Source of the DNA: Bacillota bacterium
Lineage (GTDB): Bacteria > Bacillota > SHA-98 > UBA4971
NCBI GenBank assembly: GCA_030024085.1
Contig: JASEJE010000001.1
Span: forward strand, 124,001 to 188,000
DNA length: 64,000 bases
Direction of reading: 5' to 3'
Under the pieces are notes generated by a model. That model made no database searches. It had not been told where the DNA came from and saw only the letters and a list, made by a program, of their open reading frames with translations. Shown here in pieces: positions 46,565-47,301 of this stretch (its first letter is position 1; the number at the start of each line of letters is the position of its first letter). Both the position numbers and the translations under genes were made by a program.

Positions 46565-47301
46565 CTTCCACGTTCGATTATAGTTATGTTGGCCAGGTCG
46601 AGTCCAAGACACCGCGCAACGATGTCGCCGATCTGCTCGGCGTCGGACCGTGTAAGCTCCGGCCCTGATACCACCACGTCGCACGTGTCGCCTCTCACGA
46701 AGACGAGAGCGTCTTTGTATCCCCTCGCCCGTATGAGCGCCTCAGCCTCAGCCTCCGCCTCGGTCTTCTTTGAAAGATCCACAAGCTGCATTCCGGCGGT
46801 GGTGCGGGCCTCTTCGGAGGCCTTGTCGTCAGCCATGACTTGCTGCAGGATCTCGATGTTCCTGGATCGCGCGCGGCTGCGCTCGAGCCTGTACTCAGAG
46901 AAAAACTCCTCGCCGCTTGCAGCGAGGTCGGCCGTGGACTGCCCATCCGCCAGCGCCCCGTCCGTAGCCCCCGTCGCTGCTCTCGTCCCCGTCCCTGCTC
47001 CTGTTCCAGCCGCCGTTCCAGTCCCTGTTCCCGTCCTAGTCCCGGTCTCCGTCACTATCCCTGCCCCCGTTTTCGTTTCGGCTCCCACTCCCGTCGCGGT
47101 CGCCGTTTGTGCCGCCCCCATCGGGCGGCTGGTCGCCGGCTGCGCGTGGCCCTGGAGCGCAGCGGCAGGGCCGTCCTGGAGGGCCGTGGACAGGGTCCCT
47201 CCTTTGGGCGGCGTCTGGACGTTCCTCGTGCCTATCAGGACCCCAAGGACCACCGCGACCACGACCATCAACGCGAACCCCGATCTCGCCCTGTCTTTCA
47301 T
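46561..47301 (-). CDS. spoIIIAH: Stage III sporulation protein AH
   Basis: A mother-cell membrane protein that pairs with forespore SpoIIQ to form the feeding-tube channel. 246 residues: an N-terminal helix (FALMVVVAVVLGVLIG) and a C-terminal YscJ/FliF-like domain (SEYRLERSRARSRNIEILQQVM, KKTEAEAEAEALIRARGYKDALVF). Between them is a Thr-Gly dipeptide run from degenerate ACNGGN hexamers (46971-47105). The ATG at 47301 is used; a GTG three codons earlier touches the spoIIIAG stop. The TAA stop is inside the terminal CTAAG of element E. Confidence 0.93.
   Translation of the reverse strand: MKDRARSGFALMVVVAVVLGVLIGTRNVQTPPKGGTLSTALQDGPAAALQGHAQPATSRPMGAAQTATATGVGAETKTGAGIVTETGTRTGTGTGTAAGTGAGTGTRAATGATDGALADGQSTADLAASGEEFFSEYRLERSRARSRNIEILQQVMADDKASEEARTTAGMQLVDLSKKTEAEAEAEALIRARGYKDALVFVRGDTCDVVVSGPELTRSDAEQIGDIVARCLGLDLANITIIERGS
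46971..47105 (-). repeat. In-frame hexamer tract in spoIIIAH
   Basis: About 20 degenerate ACNGGN/GCNGGN units (minus strand) code a Thr-Gly/Ala-Gly linker. It is the longest of the in-gene hexamer expansions in the window. Confidence 0.8.

Follow-up and report, generated by a model that had tools for sequence, protein, structure and literature searches.

In-frame hexamer arrays in a Bacillota bacterium as part of a genome-wide duplication of 5- to 12-base units filtered by reading frame and protein position

The Gly-Thr/Ala-Thr-rich linker of SpoIIIAH is one of six dipeptide tracts in the stretch of Bacillota DNA analysed here (64,000 nucleotides, hereafter the window), and it raises the question of whether such tracts are built at the level of the protein or of the DNA. 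The original prediction favoured the DNA, and held that hexamer units were expanded in frame in unrelated genes by a genome-wide process, with selection for disordered positions as the filter. All six tracts were found where they had been placed and with the dipeptides that had been named, but those of spoIIIAH and spoIIIAG proved not to be present-day hexamer repeats. The tracts, the exact arrays within them and one intergenic array have the following window positions.

3119..3215, reverse strand: methionine gamma-lyase-like protein (gene 1836-3254), Asp-Ile/Asp-rich tract close to the N-terminus
3180-3204, reverse strand: exact GACATC x4.2, read as Asp-Ile, in the methionine gamma-lyase-like gene
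9152..9172, no strand: intergenic 8-mer array CGCGGCAA x2.6, a frame-incompatible unit outside genes
17996..18021, reverse strand: exact GGGACA x4.3, read as Gln-Gly, in mutS (gene 17787-20522)
29684..29724, reverse strand: GGGGCC array, read as Ala-Gly, in the C-terminal tail of a BFD-like [2Fe-2S] protein (gene 29632-30171)
29776..29845, reverse strand: Asp-Ala run of GATGCA/GACGCA-type units downstream of the Fe-S domain of the BFD-like protein
46971..47105, reverse strand: Gly-Thr/Ala-Thr-rich linker of SpoIIIAH, between the membrane helix and the conserved domain (gene 46561-47310)
47738..47772, reverse strand: short Gly-Thr/Gly-Ala run in the linker of SpoIIIAG (gene 47311-47994)
48556..48660, reverse strand: Thr-Gly/Ala-rich insert of SpoIIIAF (gene 48170-48865)
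48566-48582, reverse strand: exact GGGACC x2.8, read as Thr-Gly, in spoIIIAF

When compared with codon-order shuffles, 6-nt periodicity was significant in the spoIIIAH, spoIIIAF, BFD, mutS and lyase tracts and borderline in that of spoIIIAG (P 0.05). Within the spoIIIAH tract, bases six apart matched at frequencies of 0.63 and 0.70 at codon positions 1 and 2, while third positions remained at background (0.37; 16 matches vs 16.8 in shuffles) and the TGTGTGT core showed a synonymous identity of 0/5. As its periodicity is confined to codon positions 1 and 2, this tract is either what erosion has left of an old array or a tract shaped at the level of the protein, and it holds no present-day hexamer repeat. 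The spoIIIAG tract is likewise periodic at codon positions 1-2 only, with third positions at the background level. The GGGGCC array of the BFD-like gene, which counts 3.3 exact copies or about 6 if imperfect ones are included (29684-29720), is periodic at third positions as well (P<0.0005).

The genome of the window (G000) is a 3.11-Mb draft in 65 contigs, of which the window is C11:124001-188000, and was compared with five congeners (G001 to G005) and a relative from the same family (G007); the same-genus relatives JAAYXB010000027 and JACIXY010000001 come from metagenome assemblies of uncultured Bacillota, and within the family the closest relative with a name is UBA5449. The linkers were not expected to be conserved across relatives, and they indeed could not be aligned between congeners. 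This holds for those of SpoIIIAH in G000 and the five congeners, the protein being 249 residues long in G000 vs 205-230 in the others (19-44 longer). The SpoIIIAF insert is missing at the same site in G001-G005; in G003 and G004, other hexamer arrays occupy a second linker of this protein, and the two species differ from each other in their units at one spoIIIAF site. The Gln-Gly run of mutS is present in G003 and G004 and missing from G001, G002 and G005. A separate hexamer-like element of SpoIIIAH, the EAEAEAEA helix (46739-46755), is conserved throughout the family and for that reason was rejected as an expansion.

Statistics for G000 were drawn from unbiased stretches totalling 280 kb, and pattern counts from the whole genome. 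A scan for period-6 enrichment, on which the prediction of a genome-wide process hinged, found a large excess: runs of at least 12 bases matching at a 6-base lag occurred at 5.3 per 100 kb, as against 0-1.8 per 100 kb under the same criterion at lags of 3, 4, 5, 7, 8, 9 and 10. Exact tandem hexamers occurred at 0.31 per 100 kb in about 75 other bacteria (1.3 Mb). Outside the window, 216 kb of unbiased G000 sequence contained hexamer arrays at nine coding and three intergenic sites. Codon-order shuffles yielded 0.2 coding arrays of period 6 against the 12 observed, and 0.2 of period 9 were expected against 4. Intergenic DNA, a small sample of 43-55 kb, held 11 arrays of periods 5-10 where about 0.3 were expected, and hexamer density was nearly equal in genes and between them (5.1 vs 6.9 per 100 kb). 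Units of 1-4 bases remained at chance level in coding as well as in intergenic DNA (2 observed in total, about 2-3 expected), and no expanded mono- to trinucleotide runs were found.

Unit lengths differ sharply between the two compartments. Coding arrays of G000 have periods that are multiples of three only (12 arrays of period 6, 4 of 9, 1 of 12, 2 of 15 and 3 of 18). Intergenic arrays number 1, 1, 3, 3, 2, 1 and 1 for periods 4 to 10, and 6, 1, 1 and 1 for periods 12 to 15. In the four array-rich species described below, the ratio of multiples of three to other units among periods 5-11 was 45:1 in coding and 7:15 in intergenic DNA (Fisher P 5e-9, with the qualification that arrays cluster in genes and the counts are thus not fully independent); this split depends on genes called with a simple codon-usage script. 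As intergenic 5-, 7-, 8-, 10- and 12-mers occur, the process is not specific to hexamers, and six is mainly the unit that the reading frame lets through. Among the intergenic cases of G000 are 10-mer arrays at L033:18764-18819, each consisting of CCCAGCGCG followed by A or G, a unit length that is frame-incompatible and lies outside genes.

The level at which copying occurs can be read from synonymous codons. In the dipeptide runs of G000, 156 of 191 pairs of synonymous codons spaced two apart were identical, where codon usage would predict 86, and the same held for G004 (87/119, 51 expected), with no clear excess in G001 plus G005 (14/33, 11.4 expected). Since synonymous codons match far above chance, copying occurs at the DNA level. 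Similar units are also read in different frames, GGGACA giving Gln-Gly in mutS and GGGAC-type units giving Gly-Thr in the spoIIIA genes. An alternative is that selection on the protein favours flexible hydrophilic linkers (Gly-Thr, Ala-Gly, Gln-Gly, Glu-Ala) and that the periodicity of the DNA simply follows from codon usage. Selection of this kind could have made the spoIIIAH and spoIIIAG tracts, where no DNA-level signal accompanies the periodicity of codon positions 1-2, and both the location of the tracts in linkers and the hydrophilic nature of the array residues, with few exceptions, agree with it. However, synonymous codons repeat well beyond expectation in most arrays, synonymous-codon resampling leaves just 0-4 arrays per sample, the same linkers of congeners lack dipeptide repeats, and similar arrays occur in intergenic DNA; as a general account, protein-level selection is therefore improbable.

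Changes in length by whole units are also seen between close relatives. Two clean cases were identified between the sister species G003 and G004, whose proteins are 96% identical: a CGTCCC array has 4 units in one and 3 in the other, and a GACGTG array differs by two units, both in DNA that is otherwise about 91-94% identical. It might be argued that such arrays are assembly or sequencing artefacts, as the array-rich genomes that can be named are all draft metagenome assemblies. Yet the arrays span at most about 55 bp, below typical read length, reading frames remain open across them, assemblies that come from independent projects (JACIXY, JAAYXB) show the effect, and congeners of equal G+C content lack the arrays, so that an artefact is very hard to credit.

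The tracts had been described as lying at linkers or termini, and a wider set agrees with this: in 26 proteins with Pfam domains, 3 of 38 arrays fell inside a domain envelope, where 21 were expected. The lyase-like protein carries its array at residues 17-25, ahead of Pfam PF06838, which begins at residue 50, and that of MutS (residues 834-842) sits in the linker between the ATPase domain and a conserved C-terminal region, the last Pfam domain ending at 800. Host proteins are varied and include ABC transporters, NuoE-like and GerA-type proteins, FliP, GyrB, secretins, SpoIIP, DNA polymerase I, QueA and MutS. The GyrB of G000 (L036:945-3173) has a 42-residue repeat-derived insert at about residues 277-320, at a conserved turn that is tight in five relatives, reading ERE-GK or ERD-GK in G001, G003, G004 and G005 and ERD-NK in G007; G002 has a different insert of about 30 residues at the same turn. 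The GyrB insert thus shows directly an essential enzyme gaining a new segment, presumably a disordered one. The proposal that arrays settle in the frame that maximises disorder was rejected, as disorder-promoting residues are favoured only modestly (mean rank 3.06, against 3.81 for control windows).

The presence of arrays in MutS, GyrB and PolA also brings to mind functional repeats, that is, hypervariable in-frame switches that tune protein activity, for which the enterobacterial mutL gene provides the precedent. In that system an in-frame hexamer in the region encoding the ATP-binding site changes copy number by slippage with a known effect, and in Salmonella and E. coli the 6-bp repeats switch mutability (PMC2955026). 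The likeness to mutL is limited to the in-frame hexamer: here the sites are many, lie in linkers and have no known effect. The arrays are located outside catalytic domains, their units and sites vary between species, and they occur in very different genes as well as in intergenic DNA, as a neutral process predicts; an on/off frameshift switch, as in the repeats of contingency loci or phase variation, is moreover not expected, since six-base units keep the frame. A switching role is accordingly even less probable than protein-level selection.

Within the genus, the load of arrays is patchy and lineage-specific, with four species rich in them and two almost free. Coding hexamer arrays numbered 12 in 237 kb of G000, 12 in 152 kb of G004, 3 in 84 kb of G002 and 2 in 153 kb of G003, whereas none was found in 162 kb of G001, in 160 kb of G005 or in 263 kb of five more distant genomes. 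The unit GGNACN, which had been noted as recurrent, is not special. Whole-genome GGNACNx3 matches amounted to 18 in G000, 25 in G002, 23 in G003 and 25 in G004 vs 2 in G001 and 3 in G005, and the reversed control pattern gave 21, 30, 46 and 38 vs 15 and 4 in the same order. As the reversed pattern is equally enriched, and in the same four genomes, none of the units stands out; over 30 different ones make up the 50 arrays. A clean clade for the array-rich trait was rejected because a tree of 15 proteins gave weak support both to the pairing of G001 with G005 (45) and to the grouping of these two with G003 and G004 (47), so that gain and loss of the trait cannot be ordered.

Candidate repair genes did not separate rich from poor species. 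All congeners have mutS, mutS2, recJ and two Y-family polymerases, all give an SbcD-like match below the cut-off, and none has Ku; with mutS, mutS2 and recJ found in every congener, loss of mismatch repair or related genes was rejected as the cause. It is possible, though somewhat short of an even chance, that a heritable change in replication or repair within this genus specifically raises the expansion of 5- to 12-base units and continually creates disordered inserts in core proteins, being present in G000, G002, G003 and G004 and absent from, or lost in, G001 and G005. In the array-free genome G005, two adjacent genes at C8:143113-145214 encode MutS-like ATPases of 539 and 542 aa, which were not reported in the other congeners.

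Genome-wide duplication of 5- to 12-base units at the DNA level, a frame filter, a positional filter and whole-unit change between sister species are thus all observed, and the predicted expansion process filtered by tolerance is upheld, with the refinements that it is not hexamer-specific and that it is lineage-specific within the genus. It is likely (roughly 80%, in our estimate) that the process is replication slippage, with units longer than mismatch repair can handle and with the reading frame and the tolerance of linkers as filters. Units of more than 4 bases would arise chromosome-wide through strand slippage in replication. MutS and MutL, judging from the literature, would correct slipped loops of about 1-4 bases and repair longer ones poorly, which would let units of about 5-12 bases grow. 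All of these lengths persist in intergenic DNA; in genes, units that are not multiples of three shift the frame, and six predominates, which would be the shortest frame-keeping unit to escape mismatch repair. Selection then purges arrays from folded domains, as the Pfam counts show, and perhaps those encoding hydrophobic dipeptides, for which composition is the weaker signal, and arrays are left in tails, inter-domain linkers and surface turns. Point mutations may finally erode old arrays until dipeptide tracts remain whose third codon positions are scrambled, as in spoIIIAH. Both mutS and mutL lie within the window, which fits the published suggestion of a size limit to mismatch repair (PMC4060949), and the lack of expanded mono- to trinucleotide runs is expected with working mismatch repair.

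On our best reading, the arrays belong, as a chromosomal case, to the long-unit simple sequence repeats, a class already known, and resemble Borg tandem repeats. For the former class, with units of about 4/5-11 bp, a 2007 survey is said to be the basis of the 2014 study by Mrazek and Huang. That study reported tandem units of 5-11 bp as over-represented in some prokaryote genomes and those of 1-3 bp as suppressed, offered the limited loop size of mismatch repair as a possible reason, found the 6n3 pattern at a normal level in almost every phylum, Firmicutes among them, and placed the extreme 6-11 bp repeats of the genomes it named between genes and not within them (Mrazek and Huang 2014, PMC4060949). 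The arrays of G000 agree with this class in having 5-11 bp units far above a composition-preserving null without an excess of 1-4 bp units, and in that arrays of this type vary by whole units between close relatives; they differ in that coding hexamers exceed the shuffle expectation about 60-fold and that congeners differ in load. Borgs are extrachromosomal archaeal elements whose repeats form rapidly and independently, are A-enriched and rare in the host genome, make new disordered regions, often in extracellular or membrane proteins, and have units always divisible by three within ORFs and mostly not so between genes (PMC9879509). The frame rule, the rapid independent formation, the disordered regions and the lineage restriction are shared with the present arrays, but these lie on a G+C-rich bacterial chromosome, have units mostly of six and include housekeeping cytosolic enzymes among their hosts. 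The array-bearing contigs carry spoIIIA, gyrB, mutS and fliP and are not huge linear extrachromosomal archaeal elements. Like the mutL switch, the heptamers of Xanthomonas and Nostoc are a narrower parallel. They share with the present arrays that they are genus-restricted long-unit repeats differing in length between close relatives, but they form G-rich families that are mainly intergenic (PMC4692102), where the present case has many different units and mainly genic hexamers. A literature search that paired bacterial hexanucleotide repeats with dipeptides returned nothing relevant.

What is unusual is the high coding load in genes of many classes, as bacterial hexamers are normally not over-represented in genes and genomes rich in long-unit repeats mostly have them in intergenic DNA. 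G001 and G005, which share the genus and the base composition, serve as natural negative controls, and the contrast makes it testable which difference in replication or repair sets the rate of long-unit slippage. The arrays likewise make it testable how new disordered segments arise inside conserved enzymes, as in GyrB with its additional 42 residues. A further insert in the window, rich in Gly, Asp and Arg and of low complexity, was noted in a polyprenyl synthase-like gene (39997-41016), where a 12-mer periodicity around 40341-40404 suggests that it is probably the same phenomenon as the hexamer arrays.
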